From contig NZ_KB235896.1 in NCBI RefSeq assembly GCF_000332135.1, forward strand, positions 4,208,356 through 4,272,355: DNA of 64,000 bases, given 5' to 3'. A model generated the notes under the pieces. It worked only from the letters and a program-made list of their open reading frames with translations, made no database searches and was not told the origin of the DNA. This document shows positions 8,156-64,000 of this stretch, in pieces. Position 1 is the stretch's first letter. Each line of letters begins with the position of its first letter. The position numbers were made by a program, and so were the translations under genes. The stretch is from Anabaena sp. PCC 7108. Lineage in GTDB: Bacteria; Cyanobacteriota; Cyanobacteriia; Cyanobacteriales; Nostocaceae.

Positions 8156-9370
8156 ATTGTGTAAGCAAATTTGTTCATAATGTTGACCGGCTATTTCCCA
8201 AGTGAATTCTGTTTGTACCAGTTGTCTAGCATTAGCAGAGAGTTGTAATCGGAGTTCCGGCTGTTCAAATAGTTGAGTAATAGCGGCTATATATTCTGCG
8301 GGTTGATTTGCTCGAAGTGCGCGTAATGGCGTTGTTTGACCATCTACGTTTAGTCCTTCTAAACCGCGATCGCTTGCTACTATCGGTATACCCGCAGCCA
8401 TAGCTTCTAGGGTTTTATTTTTTATACCAAATCCTGTCCGCATAGGAACAACGCAGATAGTAGATTTGTGCAGATATGCTGCCATTGAGGGGACACGTCC
8501 AGTGACATTAATTCCTGGTTGATTTTTCAGTTCTAAAACTTCTGGTGCAGGACGAGAACCAACAATATTAAATGTTGTCTCTGGATATTTTTTTTGAAGT
8601 TCTGGTAATACTTCATGACTGAAAAAACAAACAGCGTCTATATTTGCTAAATTATCCATTGCTCCGATAAAAATTATGCTATGTCCCCCTGGATCTTCGA
8701 GACGGTTAGGAAAAGTAACTAAATCTACACCATTAGGAATAACTGCAATTGCCGCATTTTTGTTTAACTGTTGCAGTTGTTGTTGATCTTCGGCTGTGGT
8801 AACTACAATGTGAGAAAATTTGTCACAGTAGTTTTGTTCATAACGACGCAATAATGGTAATATAACTTTGTCTCTTAATTTATTTTCTGATGTACCAGTT
8901 GCTAACTGATTTAGACAAGTTCCATAAACAGAACTATGAACATTAACTATAGTTTTTACTTGCTTTTGAAAATAGGGACGAATATAAATTTCATTGACGC
9001 TGTGTTCACAGGTAATTACATCACATTTCCCTGCTTTAACAAAGTTGTCTACCCATGTTTGCATTTCCACTGAATAGCGGTTGAGGACACTGGGAGGTGT
9101 TCCCTGTAACAAGAATTTTCCTAGTCGCTGGATTTTCTTGGGTATTCCTACGGTGCTTCTTGGATCTGGGGGACGCTCAAAAACGACTAAGTTATCTACG
9201 CAATCCCGTAAATCTGCTATTTCCGAATCTGTCACATCCGACTCACGTTGAGTGACTAGGGTGATACTATGGCTTTGACTGAGGTATTTGAGTAGATTAA
9301 AGGTTCTGACTTGGGTTCCGCCCCTTGTCGGTGGATAGGGAAAGGTGGAAGATAGCATTAAGATATTCAT
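8132..9370 (-). CDS. Glycosyltransferase family 4 (group 1)
   Basis: A 412-residue GT-B glycosyltransferase from the preferred start at 9370. An in-frame upstream ATG at 9412 would add 14 residues, but the family N-terminus is MNILMLSSTFPYPPTRGG. The glycine-rich nucleotide-sugar loop is RGGTQVR. The C-terminal GT1 domain shows IPNGVD, IIFIGAMDN, VTGRVPSM and the donor-binding EX7E-like segment GIKNKTLEAMAAGIPIVA. It probably transfers a sugar from a nucleotide-sugar to an envelope polysaccharide or lipid on the cytoplasmic side. The last seven residues (RHLQKKL) and the TAG stop are encoded by the family B MITE at 8065-8155. It is divergent from the family 2 glycosyltransferase at 9456, with an 85-base shared promoter region. 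Confidence 0.88.
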   Translation of the reverse strand: MNILMLSSTFPYPPTRGGTQVRTFNLLKYLSQSHSITLVTQRESDVTDSEIADLRDCVDNLVVFERPPDPRSTVGIPKKIQRLGKFLLQGTPPSVLNRYSVEMQTWVDNFVKAGKCDVITCEHSVNEIYIRPYFQKQVKTIVNVHSSVYGTCLNQLATGTSENKLRDKVILPLLRRYEQNYCDKFSHIVVTTAEDQQQLQQLNKNAAIAVIPNGVDLVTFPNRLEDPGGHSIIFIGAMDNLANIDAVCFFSHEVLPELQKKYPETTFNIVGSRPAPEVLELKNQPGINVTGRVPSMAAYLHKSTICVVPMRTGFGIKNKTLEAMAAGIPIVASDRGLEGLNVDGQTTPLRALRANQPAEYIAAITQLFEQPELRLQLSANARQLVQTEFTWEIAGQHYEQICLHNRHLQKKL

Positions 9371-9455: not shown

Positions 9456-10436
9456 ATGCCTAAAGTTAGTGTTTGCATTCCCACTTACAACCGAGCTAAT
9501 TTACTTTCTTACGCTGTGAATAGTGTTTTATCTCAAACTTACAAAGACTTTGAAATTATTATTTGTGATGATGGTTCTACAGATAATACTTCGGAAATAG
9601 TCAGTAAATGGGATGATCCACGCATTCGCTATATCAGACAACCTGTTAATGGTGGCCGTAGTCGGAATATGCGTTCTGGTTTTAAAGCTGCTTGTGGGGA
9701 TTATTTTATCAAATTTGATGATGATGATGCAATTACTCCCGAATTTCTAGAGAAAACCGTGGCTGTTTTAGATGCAGCATCAAATGTAGATTTTGTTTGT
9801 ACAAATCATTGGATTATTAATCAGAATAACGAAAGAATTGAATCAGCAACTAAAGAAAATTCTAGTAAGTGGGGAAAAGATAAACTTGAAGCTGGGCTGA
9901 TTCCTGATTTAATTAGGGAAACTTTTATCAAGCAAAGTTTGCAAGTTGGTTCAACTTTGTTCCGTCGAGATTGTTTGATGGAAGTTGATTATATGCGTCC
10001 CCAAGCTGATGGATGTGAGGATTTTGATTTATTAGTCAGATTGGCTATTGCAGGTAAGCAAGGGTATTTTTTACCTGAGTTTTTGATGGAATATCGTTTT
10101 CATGGTGGACAAACAAGTTTAAAACAAAATCTGCATTTTCTGTCCGCCAAAGTTTTTTGTATAAATAGTTACAAATTTCCTGATCAAGAATTAGAGAAAA
10201 TGCGATCGCACAAATTAGCTATTACCCAGCAAGCTTTAGGTTTAAGACTGATTGAAAAGGGTGATAGCATCGAGGGAAGAAAGCTTTTACAGCAATCAAC
10301 TCAGGTTTTAGGGAGTGATAAAAAAATCATGTTGGGTATGATGCTATCTTATCTACCAATCAGTTTACGGAAGTCAGCTTTACAGATTTTTCGTCAGATT
10401 CGTCCCAAGGATTATACTGAGCAAGTACGGGGGTAA
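9456..10436 (+). CDS. Glycosyltransferase family 2
   Basis: A 326-residue inverting GT-A glycosyltransferase. The N-terminal nucleotide-binding fold reads VSVCIPTYNRA, followed by CDDGSTDNT and the metal-binding acidic motif FDDDDA near residue 90. A central acidic EDFDLLVRL segment matches the catalytic-base region of the family. There is no membrane helix. It is likely to act in exopolysaccharide or glycolipid assembly together with the divergently encoded family 4 enzyme. The ATG at 9456 begins directly with the conserved first strand, so this start is probably right. Confidence 0.88.
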   Translation: MPKVSVCIPTYNRANLLSYAVNSVLSQTYKDFEIIICDDGSTDNTSEIVSKWDDPRIRYIRQPVNGGRSRNMRSGFKAACGDYFIKFDDDDAITPEFLEKTVAVLDAASNVDFVCTNHWIINQNNERIESATKENSSKWGKDKLEAGLIPDLIRETFIKQSLQVGSTLFRRDCLMEVDYMRPQADGCEDFDLLVRLAIAGKQGYFLPEFLMEYRFHGGQTSLKQNLHFLSAKVFCINSYKFPDQELEKMRSHKLAITQQALGLRLIEKGDSIEGRKLLQQSTQVLGSDKKIMLGMMLSYLPISLRKSALQIFRQIRPKDYTEQVRG

Positions 10437-10641
10437 ATTTAGATTTTACTGAGCTAAACACGCTCTAGGGTATGAAAACTATGAATCAATCTTGATTAGC
10501 AGTGCATTTGACATTATTAAACAAGTTTCAAATGGCTATTACTTAAACATAAATCAAAGTGGGAATTAGTCAACACTCAAAATTAGCTAAAACTCATGAA
10601 TTCCACTGTCTTTCATGAAAACTACGGTGAAGGGAAATATC

Positions 10642-12705
10642 ATGGCATCGATTGATGAACTTATTCTCAGGAATACTAATCCTTTTGATAATATTTACCC
10701 TACAAATTTTTGGCATAAACAAGATAATTCAGAATCGACAATTGATTATATTCATCAGGAAGCATTTGTCATAATTGAAACACTATTAAATCAAGTTTCT
10801 CAAGATTCTCGAACAAGAACTGTACTAATTCATGGTAATACTGGTTCTGGCAAAACTTACTTATTGAGTAGACTTAAAAGACAATTAAATTATAAGGCGT
10901 GTTGTGTTCATATTCCTCCTTTTCCTCAACGGGATAGCATTTGGCGGCGAATTCTGCGCTATACAGTTGATAGTTTAGTACAAGTTGTAGAAAACAATCA
11001 AAGCTCTGTATTATTGCTGTGGTTATCGACTATCAAGCAAGATGTGAGTAAAGACACTAGATTAGATTTTTGGCGAAGTGATAAGCAAAAATTTATTAAT
11101 AAACTTAAAGAGATATATAAACAAGTTAATATTTACGATCCTGATGTTTTCTTTGGAGTTTTGTATGAATTAAATAATCTAGAAGTTGATAACTTAGCTG
11201 GCAAATATCTGCGGGGAGATAACTTGAGTGAAGAGTCTTTGCAAAAAATAGGAGTAGAAAAATCTATTAATACAGAGACAACAGCAAGAGAAAACCTAGC
11301 TAATTTTAGTAAAATCATGGCTGATATTCAGCCAATCATAATTTGTTTTGATCAAATAGAAAGTATAGCTCGTTTACCAAATGGCTCAATAGATTTAGAT
11401 ATCTTATTCCAAGTCAATGCCAAAATTCGAGAGGAAAATCAAAACTGTCTGATTATTATTAGTATTTCAACTCATAGCTGGGAACAGAATAAATATCAAA
11501 TTGAACAATCCTATAAAGATACTATTAATCAAACAATAGAATTGAGAAATATTAGCTTGGCTCAAGCAGAATTGCTTTTAGGTTCTAGACTTCACTCTCT
11601 ACATCAACAGGCAGATACTCAGCCTATTTCTCCTATATATCCTTTAAATCGTCAATTGTTAGAAACCACATTTACGACAGGTAGAACTAATCTCAGAGAT
11701 GTGTTAATCTATGCTAGGAACGTATATAAAGCTTACAAAGAATGGTTAGCTAAAGATGATAAATCAGATCATTTTAGCTTGTCTAAAAAAAATCAAAATA
11801 AAAAAGATGAGTATTTAGAGTTTCTCTCATATTTTAAAGTAAAGTGGCGTGAAGAGTTTTCACAAATTCAGAAACAAATTACACAAGTTAGCCAATTATC
11901 ATCTCCAGAATTAATTCAGTTTCTCCAAGAAGTTTTATTAGCTTTGCAAATCGAAAAAGTTACAAATCCCCTATTTATTAGAACCAAGTATGCTAGTTAT
12001 TCACTAAGTTATGAATTGCAGGATAAATCAGAAATAGTGGGAGTTGTTTGGGCAGAAGATCCTAATATAACTAGTTTTTTTCATGTCATGGAAGCTTGTA
12101 GGAAAACTCTTGAGAAAAATCCGTCTTTGAAATTGAGTCTAATTCGTGGAGAATCTTTAGGTAATCCCAAAAGTCAGGCTTATAAACTTTATAAAGAAAT
12201 TTTTATTGGTTCTCATCATCGTTATATTACAACAGATTTAAACTCTGTTCATTATCTAGCTACGTATCATAATTTTGTGAGAAATGCTCGTGAAGGAGAT
12301 TTGGTAATTGGTAGTAAGATTATCAGTTTAAAAAATTTGCAATCTTTGATTTATACAACTAAGATTTTGCATAATTGTCTTTTATTACAAGAGTTAGGAG
12401 TAGTCAAAAAAGCTCATGATTTGGCAACTCAAACTAATGGTAATAATGAACCAACTATGTTTAAGCCTATGAATGAAAAAAACGTATGGAAGGAAAGCAA
12501 AGATTATATATTTAATCTAATCATAACTCAGCATTGTTTGAGTAGAAAAGTTTTGCTGAAAAAGGCTTGTAATAACTTTCCAGGATTGAAGAAGTTACAA
12601 CTAGATGGTTTGATTCAACAGTTATGTTGGGAAAATAAGATTAAAGTTATTGATTCTAAAGCTTCTCCTGAGTCTCAGTTGATTTGTTTGTTTCCTAAAA
12701 AGTGA
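10642..12705 (+). CDS. Large P-loop ATPase of unknown role (possible defence ATPase)
   Basis: About 687 residues from the ATG at 10642, which is preceded by AAGGGA. An in-frame ATG at 10615 would add nine residues and lacks such a site. An N-terminal NPFDN...FW signature is followed by Walker A (GNTGSGKTY, about residue 65-73) and Walker B (IIICFDQIES, about 232-241), with a STHSWE sensor-like strand after it, so this is an AAA+/STAND-like ATPase. The region after residue 390 is not recognised. It contains a strand-rich block (VVWAEDPN, LSLIRGESLG) that could be a nuclease-like or ligand-binding fold and ends in what looks like a small winged-helix segment. It is AT-rich and stands upstream of the nuclease-ParA/ParB genes, which suggests an accessory island. 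No family name is offered. Confidence 0.75.
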   Translation: MASIDELILRNTNPFDNIYPTNFWHKQDNSESTIDYIHQEAFVIIETLLNQVSQDSRTRTVLIHGNTGSGKTYLLSRLKRQLNYKACCVHIPPFPQRDSIWRRILRYTVDSLVQVVENNQSSVLLLWLSTIKQDVSKDTRLDFWRSDKQKFINKLKEIYKQVNIYDPDVFFGVLYELNNLEVDNLAGKYLRGDNLSEESLQKIGVEKSINTETTARENLANFSKIMADIQPIIICFDQIESIARLPNGSIDLDILFQVNAKIREENQNCLIIISISTHSWEQNKYQIEQSYKDTINQTIELRNISLAQAELLLGSRLHSLHQQADTQPISPIYPLNRQLLETTFTTGRTNLRDVLIYARNVYKAYKEWLAKDDKSDHFSLSKKNQNKKDEYLEFLSYFKVKWREEFSQIQKQITQVSQLSSPELIQFLQEVLLALQIEKVTNPLFIRTKYASYSLSYELQDKSEIVGVVWAEDPNITSFFHVMEACRKTLEKNPSLKLSLIRGESLGNPKSQAYKLYKEIFIGSHHRYITTDLNSVHYLATYHNFVRNAREGDLVIGSKIISLKNLQSLIYTTKILHNCLLLQELGVVKKAHDLATQTNGNNEPTMFKPMNEKNVWKESKDYIFNLIITQHCLSRKVLLKKACNNFPGLKKLQLDGLIQQLCWENKIKVIDSKASPESQLICLFPKK

Positions 12706-57115: not shown

Positions 57116-58216
57116 TTATCTAAAAGGAGGAGAATAGAGTAGACCACCTTTTGACCAAAGTTGATTTTGTCCACGGGCTAAATTAAGTTTTGTCTGAGTT
57201 CCCAAATTGCGATCATAAATTTCGCCATAGTTACCAACGTGCTTGACTATCTTGGCCGCAAAGTCCTTTGTTAAGCCGAGTCCTTCACCAAGATTACCTT
57301 CTGTGCCTAAAAAACGCTTGATATCTGGGTCGGTAGTAGTGGTAAATTGTGCCAGATTTTTAGAGTTAATCCCTAATTCTTCAGCTTTTATCAAGGAATA
57401 AACTGTCCACTTGACGATATCAGCCCATTGAGAATCTCTTTTAACCACTGCTGGGGCGAGGGGTTCTGAGGAGAGAACATCATCGAGAATTACATTATCT
57501 TCCGGTTTGGGTAAAGTTGTCCGTCGGGAAACTAATGCAGAACGGTCGGCTGTAATCGCCTCACAACGTCCTTCTGCATAGGTAGCAAAGGTAATATTAA
57601 CATCTTCAAAAACCACTGGTTTATAGGTTATGCTTCTTTTCCGCATTTGGTCTCCTAGGTTTTGTTCTGTAGTAGTACCAGTTTGGACACAGATTGCTTT
57701 TTCCTTGAGGTCTGCTAGTGATTTGATACCGCTACTTTTGCGAACCATAATGGCTTGACCGTCATAAAAAACCACAGGTGCAAAATTTAAACCTTGAGAG
57801 GTATCACGACTCAATGTCCAGGTAGTGTTGCGGCTGAGAATATCTACTTCCCCAGCTTGTAAGGCTGTAAATCGTTCTTTAGAATTGAGATTCCGGTATT
57901 CTACAGCTTCAGGATCATCAAATACAGCTGCTGCTACGGCGCGGCAAATATCTACATCGATTCCGTTATATTTACCATCAGTTTCGACAAAGCTAAATCC
58001 TGGTAATTCACCACTAACACCACAGATGAGCTTACCACGGCTTTTAATGCTATTCCAGCGATCGCGCATAACTTGTGATGCAGACGTGCTGGCTGTAGTT
58101 GCTGTTTTTTCTGACCCGCTACTACAAGCAGTGAGAGCTAAAATGATGGAAACAATGGCTAAAATTAAACCAGATTGACGCATAGACTTAATCATCGTTT
58201 GTGCTGAGTTAAACAA
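57116..58216 (-). CDS. natF: Amino-acid ABC transporter substrate-binding lipoprotein, NatF/BztA type
   Basis: A 366-residue periplasmic amino-acid binding protein. Its signal peptide ends in the lipobox LALTAC (Cys31, or Cys24 if translation begins at ATG 58195). SBP_bac_3 motifs: GKLICGVSGELPGFSFVETD, YNGIDVDICRAVAAAVF, VEYRNLNSKERFTALQAGEV and NTTWTLSRD. The long C-terminal half fits the BztA/AapJ branch. In Anabaena, NatF-NatG-NatH with BgtA takes up glutamate, aspartate and neutral amino acids, which also recaptures amino acids leaking from filaments. No ATPase gene is adjacent here. Confidence 0.9.
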   Translation of the reverse strand: MFNSAQTMIKSMRQSGLILAIVSIILALTACSSGSEKTATTASTSASQVMRDRWNSIKSRGKLICGVSGELPGFSFVETDGKYNGIDVDICRAVAAAVFDDPEAVEYRNLNSKERFTALQAGEVDILSRNTTWTLSRDTSQGLNFAPVVFYDGQAIMVRKSSGIKSLADLKEKAICVQTGTTTEQNLGDQMRKRSITYKPVVFEDVNITFATYAEGRCEAITADRSALVSRRTTLPKPEDNVILDDVLSSEPLAPAVVKRDSQWADIVKWTVYSLIKAEELGINSKNLAQFTTTTDPDIKRFLGTEGNLGEGLGLTKDFAAKIVKHVGNYGEIYDRNLGTQTKLNLARGQNQLWSKGGLLYSPPFR

Positions 58217-58553
58217 ATCAGAATTTCATCGACATTTACAGCCGTTATCTTGGGTTAGATCAATCACATCTACAGCTTATCCTAATGGCAGCCGATATCA
58301 ATCTAGTAGTTTGTCAAGCTGATGCCTCCGGCACGCTACCGCCAACGCCACACTATGACGTGAACGTTCCTCAACTCAACCTACATAATTCTATTTTTTG
58401 AGCTTAACCGACAAGTATTGGGAGGTATAGCAGGTGACTCTTAACAGGTGACAGTGCTAAAACTCTTTTGGTGTCTAAGTTTTAGCATTGGTAGATGTCC
58501 TAACCGCCTTGTCCGTTGCTATATGTCAATTAAACCGTGGTGTACTAGTTATG

Positions 58554-58588
58554 AAAAAGCAACCCAAAGCGTTTTAAACTTGGGTTGC
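58554..58588 (-). terminator. Rho-independent terminator of psbA
   Basis: On the minus strand, GCAACCCAA and TTGGGTTGC form a perfect 9-bp stem around a 12-base loop, followed at once by TTTTT. It lies 46 bases after the psbA stop. The rest of 58217-58633 holds repeat scraps (a CCTCCGGCACGCTACC motif near 58326) and no gene. Confidence 0.85.
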
Positions 58589-58633
58589 CTACACTGTTTT
58601 TGAAGCAATGAAAATCAATTAAATTCAGGTCAA

Positions 58634-59716
58634 TTAACCGTGAATAGCAGGAGCAACTAAAGCTACAGGTTGAAAATCTCCAGCCGCTAAATCTAAGGGG
58701 AAGTTGTGAACGTTGCGTTCGTGCATTGTTTCCATTCCCAAGTTGGCGCGATTTATCACATCAGCCCAAGTATTAATTACACTACCTTGAGAATTAAGAA
58801 TAGAGTGATTAAAGTTTAAACCATTGAGGTTAAAGGCAAAAGAAGATACACCCAAGGCAGCAAACCAGATACCAATTACTGGCCAAGCACCTAAGAAGAA
58901 GTGTAAAGCACGACTATTGTTAAAAGATGCGTATTGAAAGATCAATCTACCGAAATAACCGTGAGCCGCAACAATATTATAAGTTTCTTCTTCTTGACCG
59001 AATTTATAACCGTTGTTTTGGGATTCAATTTCAGTAGTTTCCCGAACTAAAGACGAAGTGACGAGAGAACCGTGCATAGCAGAGAATAAAGAACCACCAA
59101 AGATCCCAACTACTCCCAACATATGGAATGGGTGCATGAGAACGTTATGTTCTGCTTGCAGTACCAACATGAAGTTGAAAGTACCACTAATCCCTAAAGG
59201 CAGCCCGTCAGAAAAAGAACCTTGACCAATAGAGTAGATTAATAGTACCGCAGTGGCAGCAGAAACAGGTGCGCTGTAGGCGATACAAATCCAAGGACGC
59301 ATCCCTAAGCGGTAAGATAATTCCCACTGACGACCTAAGTAAGAGAAAATACCGATCAGGAAGTGGAAAATAATTAATTGGTAAGGTCCGCCATTATATA
59401 ACCACTCATCTAAACTAGCAGCTTCCCAAATGGGATAAAAGTGCAAACCAATAGCATTGGAACTAGGAACAACCGCAGCAGAAATGATGTTATTGCCATA
59501 GAGTAAAGAACCACTAACAGGTTCACGAATACCATCTATATCTACGGGTGGTGCGGCAATGAAAGCGATGATGAAACAAATGGTTGCAGTTAAAAGTGCG
59601 GGAATCATCAGTACACCAAACCAACCAATGTACATCCGGTTGTTAGTACTGGTAATCCAATTGCAGAAATTCTCCCAAAGATTGTTACTTTGGCGTTGTT
59701 CCAGAGAAATAGTCAT
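58634..59716 (-). CDS. psbA: Photosystem II D1 protein, D1' (microaerobic) form
   Basis: Exactly 360 residues in standard D1 numbering. All catalytic and ligand residues are kept: Tyr161, Asp170, Glu189, His190, His198, His215, Ser264, His272, His332, Glu333, His337, Asp342 and Ala344 with a cleavable tail. It carries the full set of three substitutions that define the D1' form induced by low oxygen in Synechocystis, Thermosynechococcus and Anabaena: Ala80, Leu158 and Ala286. Residue 162, next to the redox-active Tyr161, is Ser where D1 proteins normally have Pro. Gln130 is present. It is divergent from petC with a 435-base shared regulatory region and followed by its own terminator. Confidence 0.95.
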
Positions 59717-59776
59717 AATGTTTAATTCTGAGGTTAATCGTTGTTCAAGGCAAGTTAACCTTATGCTTATTATTTA

Positions 59777-59801
59777 ACTACATAGTTATATAGCTTGTCA
59801 A
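59777..59801 (-). promoter_or_regulatory. psbA promoter with candidate operator
   Basis: On the minus strand TTGACA (59801-59796) is followed five bases later by the motif ATATAACTATGTAGT (59791-59777), which therefore sits between the -35 and the AT-rich -10 region. Its reverse, ACTACATAGTTATAT, is nearly identical to sites before petC and the persulfide dioxygenase gene. The position suits a repressor. Confidence 0.6.
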
Positions 59802-60053
59802 GTAAATTTTCATATTGTTTTAAAATTATTAGAGACAGCGAGGTTGAGGGGTATAACCTTGACTGGGCTTTCGGTTTAATGACTACTTAAAAATTCCCTA
59901 CCTTAATCTACTCCCCTTCTTTAGCTATTCCCTACCTTATGAGTGGTTTCATAAGTCAAATCGGACTGCTATAAATAGGGTTCGCTGAAAAAATTGTCTA
60001 TTAGAAAGAGAGTCATTTTTGAGAAAGATTTTATTTACTAATTAGCAATATTG

Positions 60054-60070
60054 CAATATAGTTATATAAT
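60054..60070 (+). promoter_or_regulatory. petC promoter with candidate operator
   Basis: The motif CAATATAGTTATAT (60054-60067) overlaps a perfect -10 box TATAAT (60065-60070). A weak -35, TTAGCA, lies 17 bases ahead. The motif shares ATAGTTATAT with the psbA and dioxygenase promoters and GCAATATAGT with the arsR upstream region. The remainder of 59717-60151 shows no gene. Confidence 0.6.
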
Positions 60071-60151
60071 AATGATGTAAACAAACCCTACCAAATCAAA
60101 ATATTAGCCAAAGCAATCAACAACTATACCGGAGATGAAAAGTATAAATAT

Positions 60152-60685
60152 ATGCACAATACTCTTCCTCTAGAAAGTCCCTCAATATCGAGGCGACAAC
60201 TACTAAATTTTCTCACAGGTGCAGTTGTGGCTACTACAGCCACCAGCGTGTTGTATCCTGTGACTAAATTCTTTATTGCTCCCACAGAAGGAAGTGAAGA
60301 TGGTTCTATCCTTGCTAAAGATATTCATGGAAATCTCATTCCTGCAAAACAGATTTTAGCTGAACCCCCTGGTACTCGTGCTTTAGTTGCGGGTTTAGCA
60401 GCAGAACCTACTTACCTAACAATACAGTCAGATGGTACTTTGCACCCTTGGGGAATTCTCGATAACTGTACCCATTTAGGTTGTACCTTTCCTTGGAATC
60501 CCAATGACAATCAATTTCAATGTCCCTGTCACGGTTCTCGCTATGATCCCGATGGGAGAGTAGTACGAGGTCCTGCACCTCTTCCTCTTAAACTTGTTAG
60601 TGTGAACTTGGAAGAGGAGTATATCAGAATTTCTCCCTGGACAGAAATTGACCCCCGGACTGGGGAAAAACCCTGGTGGGTTTAG
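60152..60685 (+). CDS. petC: Rieske iron-sulfur protein of cytochrome b6f (alternative PetC)
   Basis: A 177-residue Rieske protein. A twin-arginine-type N-terminus ([20 protein letters not shown]) forms the membrane anchor. The 2Fe-2S cluster ligands are in CTHLGC (C106, H108, C111 structural) and CPCHGS (C124, C126 structural, H127), followed by GPAPLPL. It would pass electrons from plastoquinol to cytochrome f in b6f. Cyanobacteria carry several petC genes; this one, beside a D1' gene and sulfide-detoxification genes, is likely an accessory copy for low-oxygen or sulfidic conditions (inference). It is followed 34 bases later by a rhodanese gene, probably in the same transcript. Confidence 0.92.
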
Positions 60686-60719
60686 TAGTTTGATTTTATG
60701 GAGAGCTAAATCTGCGCTC

Positions 60720-61211
60720 ATGAAAATACCACGTTTTTTAACTATAGTTCTATTGAGTTTCTGCGTATTTATTCCTGCCTTTTTTGGTGTTAACTATAAC
60801 GCATCAGCTTTAGCATCCCCTTTATCACCAATGCAGAAAATCGCAGTAGTTTCTACCACCACTGCTGAGTTGAAAACAACAGTGGATAATTTCCTCAAAT
60901 CTATACCTGGAGACTATTACACCGTCGGGAAAGTGGCTCAGTTGAAACAGTTACTCAAACAAGAGGATGTTTTTTTAGTGGATGTCAGACAACCTTCTGA
61001 GTACGCATCTGGTCATATTGGTGATGCTATTAATATTCCTCTGCGGACATTGGTGCAAAACCTCGACAAGATTCCCAAAAAACAGCCTGTAGTAATTTAC
61101 TGTTCCTCTGGTTATCGTTCTGCAATGGCAGTTATGTCGTTACACCTGTTGGGCTATGATAATGTCCGAGGTTTTCCACCCAGTATGAATGGTTGGAACG
61201 CAGCTAGTTAA
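60720..61211 (+). CDS. Exported rhodanese-domain sulfurtransferase
   Basis: A 163-residue protein from ATG 60720 with a signal peptide (KIPRFLTIVLLSFCVFIPAF ... ASALA), so it is probably periplasmic or lumenal. The single rhodanese domain (about 68-160) has VFLVDVRQPSEYASGHI and the active-site loop CSSGYRS with Cys128. The frame is open to an ATG at 60648, which would overlap petC and place non-signal residues first, so it is rejected. Rhodaneses move sulfane sulfur; the neighbouring persulfide dioxygenase and second rhodanese point to sulfide oxidation. Confidence 0.88.
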   Translation: MKIPRFLTIVLLSFCVFIPAFFGVNYNASALASPLSPMQKIAVVSTTTAELKTTVDNFLKSIPGDYYTVGKVAQLKQLLKQEDVFLVDVRQPSEYASGHIGDAINIPLRTLVQNLDKIPKKQPVVIYCSSGYRSAMAVMSLHLLGYDNVRGFPPSMNGWNAAS

Positions 61212-61219
61212 GATACAGT

Positions 61220-61318
61220 AGACATCTCTGCAAAAGATTGTAGAGCCGAGAATCCCTACCCATAGAACTTCTCTACAAGGGTTCTAGAAAACGCATATTT
61301 AATTTTCACTAGATGTCT
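61220..61318. repeat. MITE-like element, family B, copy 3
   Basis: A 99-bp element, reverse orientation of 6113-6209, with termini AGACATCTC and AGATGTCT and a flanking AGT duplication on both sides. It starts nine bases after the rhodanese stop. Confidence 0.88.
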
Positions 61319-61329
61319 AGTAGGAGTCT

Positions 61330-61365
61330 GGACTTACGCGAAATTTCGTATAAGTCCATTTTTTT
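61330..61365 (+). terminator. Rho-independent terminator after petC-rhodanese
   Basis: GGACTTA and TAAGTCC close a stem with inner CGAAATTTCG pairing (61330-61357), followed by ATTTTTTTG. It separates the petC-rhodanese unit from the dioxygenase operon. The GGACTTACGC sequence is also found at ends of some mobile elements. Confidence 0.75.
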
Positions 61366-61375
61366 GTCTCCCCAC

Positions 61376-61409
61376 TGGACATTTACATTTTATTACTATA
61401 TAGTTATAT
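61376..61409 (+). promoter_or_regulatory. Promoter of the dioxygenase operon with candidate operator
   Basis: TGGACA (61376-61381), 17 bases, then TATAGT (61399-61404) form a plausible promoter. The motif ACTATATAGTTATAT (61395-61409), containing the perfect palindrome ACTATATAGT, covers the -10. It differs from the psbA site by one base over 15. Confidence 0.6.
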
Positions 61410-61454
61410 CATCAAATAAAATAGCAACAAAAAATTTATCGGGAGGCAGTTAGT

Positions 61455-62144
61455 ATGTTATTTCGGCAACTGTTCGATCCAGAAACAAGTACATATACTT
61501 ATTTAATTGCTGACCTGGTGAGGAAAGAAGCGATTTTAGTTGACCCAGTATTAGAACAGGTGAAACGCGATCGCACTTTACTCAAAGAATTGGGGTTAAC
61601 GTTGAAATACTGCTTAGAAACCCACATCCACGCTGACCATATTACTGGAACAGGTAAACTCCGAGAAATGACAGGTTGTTTAGGAGTTGTACCCGCACAC
61701 GCCCATGCAGCTTGTGCAGATAGATTTATTAACGATGGGGAAATATTAGCCTTAGGGAATGTAAACATTGAAGCGATCGCAATTCCTGGTCACACTAACA
61801 GCCATAACGCATATTTGGTAAATGGTACTCACCTATTAACAGGAGATGGTTTACTGATTCGTGGTTGTGGACGGACTGATTTCCAAAGTGGGAATGCAGG
61901 TGTTATGTATGACGCTATTACAAAAAAACTGTTTACTCTATCTGATCAAACTCTAGTTTATCCCGGTCACGACTACAAAGGTCAGACAGTTTCCACCATT
62001 GGCGAAGAAAAGCAATGGAACTCCCGATTGGTAGGAAAAAACCGTGATCAATTTATAGAGTTAATGGCAAATCTCAATTTACCTAATCCGAAGAAAATTA
62101 TGGAAGCAGTACCAGCTAATCAACGTTGTGGTAATGCAGCTTAA
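61455..62144 (+). CDS. Persulfide dioxygenase (ETHE1-like metallo-beta-lactamase fold)
   Basis: A 229-residue MBL-fold enzyme of the ETHE1/PDO group. Motifs: ETHIHADHITG (H57, H59, D61, H62), IPGHTNSHNAYLV, LLTGDGLLIRGCGRTDFQSG and VYPGHDYKGQ. Such enzymes use a single iron, bound by two His and one Asp, to oxidise glutathione persulfide to sulfite with oxygen. GGGAGG about nine bases upstream supports ATG 61455. It heads an operon with a membrane rhodanese and a TauE/SafE exporter, which fits sulfide to persulfide to sulfite, then export. An 18-base fragment of the family A MITE left end follows the stop (62148). Confidence 0.92.
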   Translation: MLFRQLFDPETSTYTYLIADLVRKEAILVDPVLEQVKRDRTLLKELGLTLKYCLETHIHADHITGTGKLREMTGCLGVVPAHAHAACADRFINDGEILALGNVNIEAIAIPGHTNSHNAYLVNGTHLLTGDGLLIRGCGRTDFQSGNAGVMYDAITKKLFTLSDQTLVYPGHDYKGQTVSTIGEEKQWNSRLVGKNRDQFIELMANLNLPNPKKIMEAVPANQRCGNAA

Positions 62145-62196
62145 TTTGGCGTTGCATAATTAAAGAAAAAAACAAAAGAATTTAGGAGAGAATTTT

Positions 62197-62742
62197 ATGA
62201 CCACTTCTCATTTGAAGACATTACAAACTATTGACGCTCCAACTCTCAAGCAGTTACTTGAACAAGAAGCTGTGACATTAATTGATGTACGAGAACCTTC
62301 TGAGTATACAGGAGAGCATATCCCTACCGCCAGATTGGTTCCTCTTTCTCAGTTTAATCCACATCAAGTTCCTCAAGATCAAAGTACAAAGGTAGTTCTT
62401 TACTGTCGTTCTGGAAATCGCTCGACAATGGCTGCTAAAAAGCTATTTGATGCGGGATTTAATACGGTTACTCATTTAGATTCGGGACTGGGTGCATGGA
62501 AAGCCGCAGGTTATCCCACCAACATTAACGACAATGCACCGATTAGTTTAATGCGTCAGGTGCAAATTGTGGCAGGTTCTTTGGTATTTACAGGCACAGT
62601 GCTAGGTGCTTTTGTTTCTCCCTGGTTCTTAATTCTCAGTGGTTTTGTGGGAGCAGGATTGATGTTTGCTGGCATCACAGATACCTGTATGTTAGGGATG
62701 TTGCTGGTTAAACTACCTTACAATCAACGGAGCAGTGTATGA
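62197..62742 (+). CDS. Membrane-anchored rhodanese with DUF2892 (YgaP-like)
   Basis: A 181-residue protein. The rhodanese domain (about 10-110) has LIDVREPSEYTGEHI and active-site CRSGNRS with Cys70. The C-terminal 60 residues form two transmembrane helices of DUF2892 type (IVAGSLVFTGTVLGAFVSPW and LILSGFVGAGLMFAGITDTC). This is the YgaP arrangement, with the sulfurtransferase held at the inner face of the cytoplasmic membrane. The stop overlaps the TauE/SafE start by four bases. Confidence 0.92.
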   Translation: MTTSHLKTLQTIDAPTLKQLLEQEAVTLIDVREPSEYTGEHIPTARLVPLSQFNPHQVPQDQSTKVVLYCRSGNRSTMAAKKLFDAGFNTVTHLDSGLGAWKAAGYPTNINDNAPISLMRQVQIVAGSLVFTGTVLGAFVSPWFLILSGFVGAGLMFAGITDTCMLGMLLVKLPYNQRSSV

Positions 62743-63593
62743 CCTGGATGATTGGGCATCTACTGGCTGCCTGTATTGGGGTCAGCTTGGGTTTAATTGG
62801 TGGTGGTGGGTCAGTATTGGCGTTGCCGATTTTGGTTTATGTGATGGGTGTACCGCCAAAATCTGCGATCGCTATGACTTTAGTGATTGTCGGGACTGTC
62901 AGTATACTCGGCTTGATACCTCACTGGCAAGCTAAAAATGTCAACTTCAAGACTGCTTTTATTTTTGGTTCTACCACCATGCTGGGGGCATTTCTGGGGG
63001 CAAAAATTGCCACACTGCCATTTGTTACCGAATCTGTACAAATGATGCTGTTTGCGGTGATGATGTTACTAGCAGCACTATTTATGATTCAGAGGAGTTC
63101 TCAGTCTGTAATAGCAGATGAAAATTTGGCACTTTATCCCCCACCTATCTGCAAGTATTGTTGGTTGTGGTTAATGACTGAAGGTTTAGGTGTGGGAGTA
63201 TTAACTGGATTAGTTGGTGTGGGTGGTGGATTTGCGATCGTTCCCGCTTTGGTATTGTTAGGAAAAGTCCCAATAAAAAAGGCGATTGGAACATCCCTAC
63301 TCATCATTATCTTTAATTCAATTTCCGGCTTTTTAGGCTATGTAGGACACGTCCCCCTCAATTGGAACTTGATCTTATCCTTTATTATTGCTGCCAGTTT
63401 GGGAACAATTCCTGGTGCGTACTTTGCTCAGTTTGTACCGGCACAAAAACTTCAGAAAACCTTTGGTTATTTTCTCTTAGCAGTTGCATCTGTGGTGTTG
63501 GTGCAAAATTTTCATCCACCTCAATCTTCTAAGGTATCGAGTCATCATTCCACCAGCATGGTAGAGCGTAGTTTTAGGGCTAAGTCCTATTGA
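62739..63593 (+). CDS. TauE/SafE-family sulfite or sulfur-anion exporter
   Basis: A 284-residue polytopic membrane protein of the TauE/SafE (DUF81) family with two homologous halves, each starting with the glycine-rich motif: LGLIGGGGSVLALPILVYVMG near residue 20 and LTGLVGVGGGFAIVPALVLLG near residue 155. About eight membrane helices are expected. Relatives export sulfite or sulfoacetate. Translationally coupled (ATGA) to the rhodanese, and in context likely to remove sulfite made by the dioxygenase. Confidence 0.9.
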   Translation: MTWMIGHLLAACIGVSLGLIGGGGSVLALPILVYVMGVPPKSAIAMTLVIVGTVSILGLIPHWQAKNVNFKTAFIFGSTTMLGAFLGAKIATLPFVTESVQMMLFAVMMLLAALFMIQRSSQSVIADENLALYPPPICKYCWLWLMTEGLGVGVLTGLVGVGGGFAIVPALVLLGKVPIKKAIGTSLLIIIFNSISGFLGYVGHVPLNWNLILSFIIAASLGTIPGAYFAQFVPAQKLQKTFGYFLLAVASVVLVQNFHPPQSSKVSSHHSTSMVERSFRAKSY

Positions 63594-63597
63594 TCAA

Positions 63598-63630
63598 TAT
63601 ATGCTATACTAGCATATAGCAATATAGTAG
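63598..63630 (+). promoter_or_regulatory. Candidate ArsR operator upstream of arsR
   Basis: A palindrome with 9-bp perfect arms, TATATGCTA (63598-63606) and TAGCATATA (63610-63618), is followed at once by GCAATATAGTAG. The 10-mer GCAATATAGT also occurs in the petC promoter. It lies 27 bases before the arsR start, a fitting place for autoregulation. Confidence 0.6.
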
Positions 63631-63656
63631 ATAAAAATATTTGACTGCCATTGTCT

Positions 63657-64000
63657 ATGTTAAAAACTTCACCAGCGGCTCTAGGACAAATTGCTGATTA
63701 TTTTAAAGTGCTTTCAGAAATCAGCCGCCTCCAGGTTCTCTGTTGTTTGAAGTCAGGTAGCAAAAATGTCACAGAAATTATTGAAGCCACTGGATTGGGA
63801 CAAGCAAATGTTTCCAAGCATTTGAAGATATTAACACAAGCGGGAATTGTCAAGCGGCAACCACAGGGGGTGAGTGTTTATTATGAAATTACTGACCCCC
63901 TAATTTTTGAGATATGTGAGCTGGTGTGCGATCGCCTTTCAATTCGCTTAGAAGAACAGTCACAGCAGTTAAAACAACTAGTACCACTGCGCGGAATCCC
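63657..64000 (+). CDS. ArsR/SmtB-family regulator, SqrR/BigR-like (runs off window end)
   Basis: The first 114 codons of an ArsR-type winged-helix repressor; the frame is still open at the window edge. It begins MLKTSPAALGQIADYFKVLS. The recognition helix segment is GLGQANVSKHLKILTQAGIV and the wing KRQPQGVSVYYEIT. Cysteines lie at 29-30 (helix alpha-2 region, VLCCL) and at 87 and 91 (alpha-5 region, FEICELVC), the places where SqrR/BigR/YgaV persulfide sensors have their reactive pair. No metal-site CxCxxC motif is seen. Next to a persulfide dioxygenase-rhodanese-TauE operon, a reactive-sulfur sensor is the best reading. Confidence 0.82.
   Translation, partial: MLKTSPAALGQIADYFKVLSEISRLQVLCCLKSGSKNVTEIIEATGLGQANVSKHLKILTQAGIVKRQPQGVSVYYEITDPLIFEICELVCDRLSIRLEEQSQQLKQLVPLRGI

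Follow-up and report, generated by a model that had tools for sequence, protein, structure and literature searches.

The stretch of DNA examined here, a window of 64,000 nt from Anabaena sp. PCC 7108 (NZ_KB235896.1), carries from position 58634 to its end a seven-gene unit in which a psbA encoding the D1' form of a photosystem II core subunit, and a petC encoding an alternative Rieske protein of cytochrome b6f (PetC2), lie beside genes for sulfur detoxification and an ArsR-type repressor. Our analysis suggests that the unit is probably a regulon of four promoters under its own ArsR, which would be released by persulfide or polysulfide and would then drive the clearance of sulfur together with an exchange to D1' and PetC2. 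Shared ArsR control of D1', the alternative PetC and sulfur detoxification is well supported at the level of sequence, since predicted operators occupy all four promoter gaps, the same site precedes about half of the D1' genes scored and, at 12 bits, none of 43 ordinary psbA genes, and the partners recur in other gene orders.

The predicted operator in the window and among relatives

The psbA gene lies on the minus strand and is followed on the plus strand by petC, rhodanese 1, the persulfide dioxygenase (PDO) gene pdo, rhodanese 2, tauE and arsR. Family searches recovered all seven, in the contiguous order that the initial annotation had proposed. From the intergenic gaps we derive four transcription units, namely psbA, petC with rhodanese 1 (34 bp apart), pdo with rhodanese 2 and tauE (a 52-bp gap and then a 4-base overlap), and arsR. 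No Rfam RNA reached the gathering threshold in 58000-64000.

Relatives of the window ArsR are divergently oriented to pdo or the membrane rhodanese in many cyanobacteria. The operator was modelled on 42 spacers between divergent ArsR and ETHE1 or ArsR and rhodanese genes, all from other genomes; 41 were used, several of the 42 are near-copies, and the window contributes none because its arsR and pdo share direction. The 20-bp palindrome ATATTACTATATAGTAATAT is present in 41 of the 42. When the window is scanned with this model, the four best sites are the four promoter gaps of the unit (Table 1), and the fifth place scores 9.5 bits. Nine of 300 dinucleotide shuffles of the window held any place of at least 15.9 bits, and none held two or more. 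The plain consensus, with up to three mismatches, matches the window twice, both times inside the unit, where 0.10 matches are expected; in the organism's own 5.9-Mb genome, TATWRCTATATAGYWATA with no or one mismatch occurs at three places among the matches listed, two of which are the pdo and petC sites. Operator 1 covers the spacer and the TTAAAT (-10-like) hexamer of a psbA promoter-like pair, and promoter-like hexamers also span the petC and pdo operators, yet such hexamers occur at chance frequency (13 found, 11.4 expected in 59600-64000). An operator that overlaps a promoter is placed as is typical of repression. Wider searches were rejected as a route to a regulon: TATWRCTATATAGYWATA with up to three mismatches gave 75 forward places in the genome against 76 in a reversed control (among the matches listed), so that its weak matches are noise, a stricter pattern gave 7 places against 6, and a loose IUPAC pattern was uninformative in the window (2 found, 2.0 expected).

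Among relatives, we scored up to 400 bp before each gene in hand and counted 12 bits or more as a site, with gene starts placed by alignment to the window proteins and near relatives included in the sets. Sites precede 96 of 112 ArsR and 44 of 50 ETHE1 genes, both of which sets include the training spacers; within the subfamily of the window ArsR the palindrome reaches at least 12 bits in 94 of 103 promoters, training spacers among them. The D1' genes have a site in 13 of 27 cases (the window's own copy counted), or in 11 once L014 and L086, where the site is nearer a divergent petC or pdo, are set aside. The corresponding figures are 15 of 92 for PetC2 (five of these sites at least 295 bp away), 10 of 53 for membrane rhodanese, 1 of 20 for rogue D1 and 1 of 4 for D1 with mixed residues. 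No site of at least 12 bits was found within 400 bp of ordinary D1 (0/43), PetC1 (0/4), rhodanese 1 (0/36) or TauE (0/44). A simpler count gives the same separation: a place within 130 bp with at most three mismatches to TATWRCTATATAGYWATA precedes 12 of 27 D1' genes versus 1 of 43 ordinary ones (Fisher p 1.6e-5, uncorrected for kinship), and 11 of the 12 lie 53-76 bp ahead of the start codon. In six D1' loci (L008, L014, L038, L227, L331 and L334) the fetched stretch has a site and no ArsR relative, so proximity to an arsR does not by itself account for the site. A site belongs to 191 of 2993 genes in the PetC2, ArsR and extra loci, including 88 ArsR, 43 ETHE1, 10 PetC, 8 rhodanese and 7 D1 genes, and 6 genes of a small rhodanese-like family recognised by eye.

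Some further occurrences are recorded in their own right. Sphaerospermopsis aphanizomenoides BCCUSP55 (L144, 8149-10345) has a 95%-identical ArsR with an operator of 29.3 bits, and the gene divergent from it encodes, in place of PDO, a flavoprotein with rhodanese similarity; a near-identical regulator thus appears to serve another likely sulfur gene. Two operators, at 9194 and 9585, persist next to a 92%-identical PetC2 in L228 (G250), one nearly identical to the window psbA site, in a stretch without a D1 match, as if psbA had been lost. An ordinary D1 (G80, F158, T286) lies directly downstream of an ArsR relative in L030 (G058, 9641-11217); this relative has neither alpha-2 cysteine, and its own promoter contains a site of 13.3 bits. 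Heme oxygenase-like genes, identified by eye near PetC2 in L242 and L297, have operator-like sites in 2 of 7 cases. A TATTGCTATATAGCAATA palindrome in the organism's own genome (G000:C2:3233680-3233697; L311, L338) stands about 40 bp upstream of a 109-amino-acid open reading frame that belongs to no Pfam family and lies near a fragment resembling, by eye, a nitrogenase-type gene; it may be a further regulon member.

Table 1. Genes, predicted operators and promoter-like sites of the unit (window coordinates)
Feature	Position	Strand	Basis or remark
psbA, D1'	58634..59716	-	A80, L158, A286; seven checked Mn-ligand residues present
Operator 1 (psbA)	59772..59791	.	15.9 bits, fourth in window; 55 bp before psbA start codon
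psbA promoter-like pair	59772..59801	-	TTGACA (59801-59796), TTAAAT (59777-59772), spacer 18; pattern match in L324
petC promoter-like site	60042..60070	+	TTAGCA-17-TATAAT; consensus match only
Operator 2 (petC)	60048..60067	.	18.9 bits, third in window; 84 bp before petC start codon
petC2-type Rieske protein of cytochrome b6f	60152..60685	+	CTHLGC and CPCHGS present
Rhodanese 1	about 60720..61211	+	N-terminal signal-like segment (by eye); active-site Cys in CSSGYR
pdo promoter-like site	61376..61404	+	TGGACA-17-TATAGT; consensus match only
Operator 3 (pdo operon)	61390..61409	.	22.9 bits, highest in window; 45 bp before pdo start codon
ETHE1-type persulfide dioxygenase	61455..62144	+	family search and structure-database matches
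Rhodanese 2, YgaP-like transmembrane domain	62197..62742	+	PF00581 and PF11127
Predicted TauE/SafE-type sulfur-anion exporter	62739..63593	+	PF01925, 163 bits
Operator 4 (predicted arsR autoregulation)	63606..63625	.	19.1 bits, second in window; 25 bp before arsR start codon
ArsR/SmtB-family repressor, 119 amino acids	63651..64010	+	last 10 bases beyond window end (64000)

The regulator, its proposed signal and competing explanations

The sequence of the repressor and its predicted structure (mean predicted local distance difference test score 87.2) have the ArsR/SmtB fold, and its closest solved relatives fit SqrR/BigR, in a structure comparison of 50 rows that does not include SqrR itself and in which other winged-helix families score equally high. 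NCBIfam places it in a general metalloregulator subfamily (82.2 bits against a cut-off of 55). Both by sequence and by structure range, C31 aligns with the alpha-2 redox cysteine of SqrR/BigR, which we take to be C41 in SqrR and C42 in BigR; the alpha-5 cysteine of those repressors is presumably C107 and C108, respectively. C31 is found in 103 of 112 ArsR relatives, C89 in all 112 and C93 in 82. The window protein also has a vicinal pair, C31-C32, of which both members occur in 33 of the 112.

We envisage a switch of the following kind. While little reactive sulfur is present, an ArsR dimer would occupy the palindrome over all four promoters and hold the genes off, as the positions of the sites suggest. 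Persulfide or polysulfide could build up from incoming sulfide or, as oxygen falls, from the stalling of the oxygen-requiring PDO; modification of the thiols of Cys31 (alpha-2) and of Cys89 or Cys93 (alpha-5) would then take the repressor off the DNA. PDO, the rhodaneses and TauE would oxidise, transfer and export sulfur, and D1' and PetC2 would take the place of the ordinary photosystem II and b6f subunits, fitting a reducing, sulfidic, low-oxygen state. Since PDO consumes O2, falling oxygen should raise persulfide, and the same switch would then answer low oxygen. We put forward, as a tentative extension that could well be wrong, that what has been described as "low-oxygen" induction of D1' and PetC2 is in fact a response to reactive sulfur. 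ArsR and PDO would together sense oxygen indirectly and rewire photosystem II and cytochrome b6f, and the switch would be retained at D1' genes in a number of cyanobacterial families and also be borne on a conjugative plasmid. If true, this use of PDO as an oxygen gauge would explain how a thiol sensor can report oxygen.

Published responses, cited here from partial texts, bear on this model from both sides. In Synechococcus PCC 7002, polysulfide raises psbA, petC, pdo, rhod and tauE, while H2O2 lowers psbA and petC, in a text that does not mention ArsR (PMC12466478). In a low-O2 mat, the psbA transcripts were mainly of the microaerobic type (PMC8651085), and microaerobic induction of a normally silent psbA has long been described, with no regulator named in the portions consulted (cited in PMC5295598 and PMC9709244).

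A number of observations weigh against the regulon that we favour. The PCC 7002 polysulfide data leave the psbA and petC copies unspecified, list psbA also as down and report a fall of sqr (PMC12466478). In the same organism, cellular sulfane sulfur is attributed to the enzyme encoded by sqr, yet deletion of sqr increased expression of each of the three psbA genes 1.5- to 2-fold and of petC 1.5-fold (PMC7042703), which is opposite to simple derepression by sulfane sulfur there. For a sulfide-tolerant Phormidium, ordinary D1 is the only form reported, with no alternative D1, as far as the accessible text goes (PMC8002359). In the regulator, the alpha-5 cysteine of SqrR/BigR is unmatched: the aligned residue is S97, and C93 and C89 stand 4 and 8 residues earlier, that is, one and two helix turns before it. 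The BigR equivalog NF040642 is also not reached (42.7 against 155 bits). The resemblance to the SqrR/BigR-type repressors named in the initial annotation extends to the fold and the alpha-2 cysteine, and not to the alpha-5 partner or the equivalog cut-off; persulfide is a putative signal, with one cysteine that matches SqrR/BigR and a partner that does not. Among relatives, 14 of 27 D1' and 77 of 92 PetC2 promoters are without a 12-bit site. With about half of the D1' and most of the PetC2 promoters siteless, many lineages have given up this control, altered it or passed it to another factor. Eight D1' loci retrieved for their D1 alone (L038, L047 and L330-L335) contain none of the partner genes, which tells against tight linkage. 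Finally, a second ArsR in the same genome may act on some of the operator sites and share targets.

This second ArsR (G000:C2:471927) is at the centre of one alternative, which we consider unlikely though deserving of attention. The window ArsR would be limited to the pdo operon and to itself, the palindromes at psbA and petC would be bound by the paralog or by another oxygen or redox factor, and the two halves of the unit would have a common site ancestry and separate signals. The paralog, 67% identical to the window protein among the matches listed, is without C31, as are 9 of the 112 relatives; ArsRs of this C31-free subfamily stand tail-to-tail beside D1' in L027, L029, L233, L238 and L253, and flanks of the TT/TA or TA/TA type are commoner at scored D1' sites than at pdo sites. 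Against this, the promoters of the C31-free subfamily carry a different core (mostly ACTAATTAGT), just two of nine reach 12 bits, and the window psbA site attains its score with a model built from spacers of ArsRs like that of the unit.

The general assignment by NCBIfam, and the fact that ArsR/SmtB proteins are often metal sensors, would also accommodate a repressor that senses arsenite, another metal or H2O2, with the sulfur genes present since thiol or metal stress yields reactive sulfur. We regard this as quite improbable. The classical alpha-3 CxC arsenic motif is absent, and ETHE1, membrane rhodanese and TauE occur in 37, 41 and 34, respectively, of 80 ArsR loci. The cyanobacterial ArsR RexT does sense H2O2 through vicinal cysteines (PMC8960804), and the window ArsR has C31-C32; however, C32 is present in just 41 of 112 relatives, and the RexT operator ATTCG-N15-CGAAT (PMC8960804) is unlike ATATTACTATATAGTAATAT, so that the window protein differs from RexT both in its operator and in lacking a conserved vicinal pair. 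In PCC 7002, moreover, H2O2 lowered psbA and petC (PMC12466478). Ordinary clustering of a plasmid-borne, mobile pool of sulfur and low-oxygen genes with no shared regulation scarcely seems credible: the closest D1' seen outside the genus (92% identical) is on a conjugative Aulosira plasmid together with PetC2 and rhodanese 1 relatives, and PetC2 is patchy (13 of 60 genomes, own included, among the matches listed), yet the top four operator sites of 64 kb coincide with the four promoter gaps, and sites precede D1' genes that have no linked partners (L038, L331 and L334).

Relation to published clusters

Part of what the unit combines has been described before. Acaryochloris marina (AM1_0448-0451) and Synechocystis (slr1181-slr1185) likewise have a variant psbA, an additional petC and a rhodanese gene as near neighbours; microoxia induces psbA1, petC and the rhodanese jointly in A. 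marina and, by a citation in the same paper, also in Synechocystis (PMC5295598). The sections available of that paper describe no regulator, operator or PDO/TauE/ArsR unit, and the form encoded by A. marina psbA1 is presumed there to be incapable of oxygen evolution (PMC5295598), whereas the window D1' retains its Mn ligands. In anoxygenic cyanobacteria, too, genes for a variant D1, a sulfide enzyme and an ArsR-like protein lie in proximity (Grim and Dick 2016, PMC5061849): sqr and psbA are near each other in 15 genomes, and 27 sqr genes are near arsR, which was read as a hint of linked control. Our unit has PDO in place of the sqr of those clusters, and that text nowhere mentions petC or Rieske, nor do the excerpts consulted give an operator. 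Neighbouring PetC2, TauE, ArsR and sulfide-handling genes are also found in Thermostichales (sqr-petC2 and arsR-sqr-tauE) and Gloeomargaritales (arsR-sqr), in a paper that cites the induction of petC2 at low oxygen (PMC11304991); no shared operator is given for them, and psbA is not described as a member, in the part of the text consulted.

The initial annotation had placed photosystem II and b6f subunits and sulfide detoxification under one sulfur-responsive regulator, and had called this a new regulatory system. The shared operator at four promoters agrees, by sequence, with the first statement; the second is overstated, as proximity of psbA, sqr and arsR, petC2/sqr and arsR/tauE clusters, and microoxic co-induction of psbA1, petC and rhodanese are in print. 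Published work already links a variant psbA with petC2, rhodanese, sqr and arsR. What appears to be new is the shared operator, the candidate regulator, the occurrence of the site at D1' genes but, with a threshold of 12 bits, at no ordinary psbA among 43, and the putative regulon of PDO, ArsR, D1' and PetC2. We found no published regulator or operator for co-control of D1' and PetC2 in a literature mainly outside subscription papers, and, among the matches listed, the operator core TACTATATAGTA occurs in two papers, neither of them about cyanobacteria. The regulon would be of the SqrR-like sulfur kind, apart from the misplaced alpha-5 cysteine, with an unexpected target set, namely subunits of photosystem II and b6f besides the sulfur genes. 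The predicted operator and adjacent repressor offer a concrete, directly testable candidate switch for "low-oxygen" photosynthesis genes, one that would tie subunit exchange to reactive-sulfur status and that bears on photosynthesis in sulfidic, low-oxygen water.

The genes and their neighbourhoods

The D1' substitutions claimed for the window psbA (A80, L158 and A286, a triad that we take to be the D1' signature) are present, as is Q130. The Mn4CaO5 ligands D170, E189, H332, E333, H337, D342 and A344 are kept, and the triad and intact ligands together identify the protein as D1' and not as a rogue, ligand-poor form. A286 is also found in the microaerobic PsbA2 of T. elongatus (PMC9709244). 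In a quick tree of 93 rows, the ordinary-D1 branch (Shimodaira-Hasegawa-like approximate likelihood ratio test (SH-aLRT) 98; 43 ordinary and 3 mixed rows) leaves out all 26 D1' rows, which split into three groups and form no single clade; outside that branch, the window D1' clusters with the Aulosira plasmid gene and a gene of a second genome of the same genus, G004 (SH-aLRT 96). The other psbA genes of the organism are three of ordinary and one of rogue type. The rogue-type gene (G000:C2:2671692-2672729; L005, L010) has the changed ligands D189, A333, V342 and F344, and its upstream region has no operator (best score -12.5 bits). A D1' profile failed to sort D1 classes, as 9 of the 30 listed loci were D1' and the remaining classed ones ordinary.

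The window PetC is 47% identical to the genome's other full-length PetC among the matches listed, and belongs, as had been claimed, to an alternative form: a second Rieske subfamily set off from PetC1 by profile score. Against 388 genomes of the class, a PetC2 profile of 14 rows gave 82 places of at least 238 bits, with the next at 224.7 (among the matches listed); the window petC scores 344, being itself one of the 14 rows, all of which have CTHLGC and CPCHGS. The start codon of rhodanese 1 was picked by eye. PDO matches 4ysb (E 4e-79, 268 bits), presumably a Myxococcus PDO, and human persulfide dioxygenase ETHE1 (4chl; E 1e-66, 228 bits), versus 70 bits for hydroxyacylglutathione hydrolase 1qh3, and hence resembles PDO over its full length more than GloB. 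A query with one cyanobacterial SQR, other SQR types not being searched, returned from the organism's genome flavoproteins only, at 28-34% identity and over part of the query, the best match being 28% identical over part of the protein.

Neighbourhoods in other genomes are biased upward in their linkage counts because many D1' loci were picked for a nearby PetC2 or ArsR. In 90 PetC2 loci (median 19.6 kb, many ending at contig ends) we find SQR in 39, rhodanese 1 in 33, D1 in 28, ArsR in 18 and ETHE1 in 11; complete D1 genes within 10 kb of PetC2 are rogue in 17 cases, D1' in 12 and ordinary in 1. The 80 named ArsR loci contain membrane rhodanese in 41, ETHE1 in 37, TauE in 34, SQR in 9 and PetC2 in 7, and D1 in 4 (D1' in 4, rogue in 1). 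The initial annotation had asked for gene order to be compared, with chance rearrangement in mind. The exact order of the seven genes is seen only here, pairs and triples recur rearranged, and the whole set recurs once, and chance juxtaposition is therefore unlikely. That one case, Nostoc sp. TH1S01 (L147), has pdo, rhodanese 2, tauE, arsR and D1', then rhodanese 1 and PetC2, with sites at pdo (22.9 bits), arsR (13.6) and D1' (10.2). PetC2 and pdo are divergent in Nostoc sp. LEGE 06077 (L150), with a 23.3-bit site between them or just inside the open frame, and G004 has psbA, petC and rhodanese 1 arranged as in the window, with sites of 10.7 and 21.3 bits.

The Aulosira laxa plasmid2 (AP018309.1; L008) has an 18.7-bit operator at its D1' and no ArsR relative in the stretch. 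It also carries a MerR regulator, a relative of ArsP-type permeases, a small thioredoxin-like gene and, near PetC2, an annotated cysteine synthase. By eye, the flanks of the window unit look ordinary: one side has an amino-acid ABC transporter, and the other a very long protein rich in repeats. The gene for the latter, on the minus strand just right of the window (L009, 12827-19000), exceeds 2000 codons and contains numerous repeats; by eye, its product appears to be secreted and very large, with nuclease-like and glycine/aspartate-rich repeat regions.

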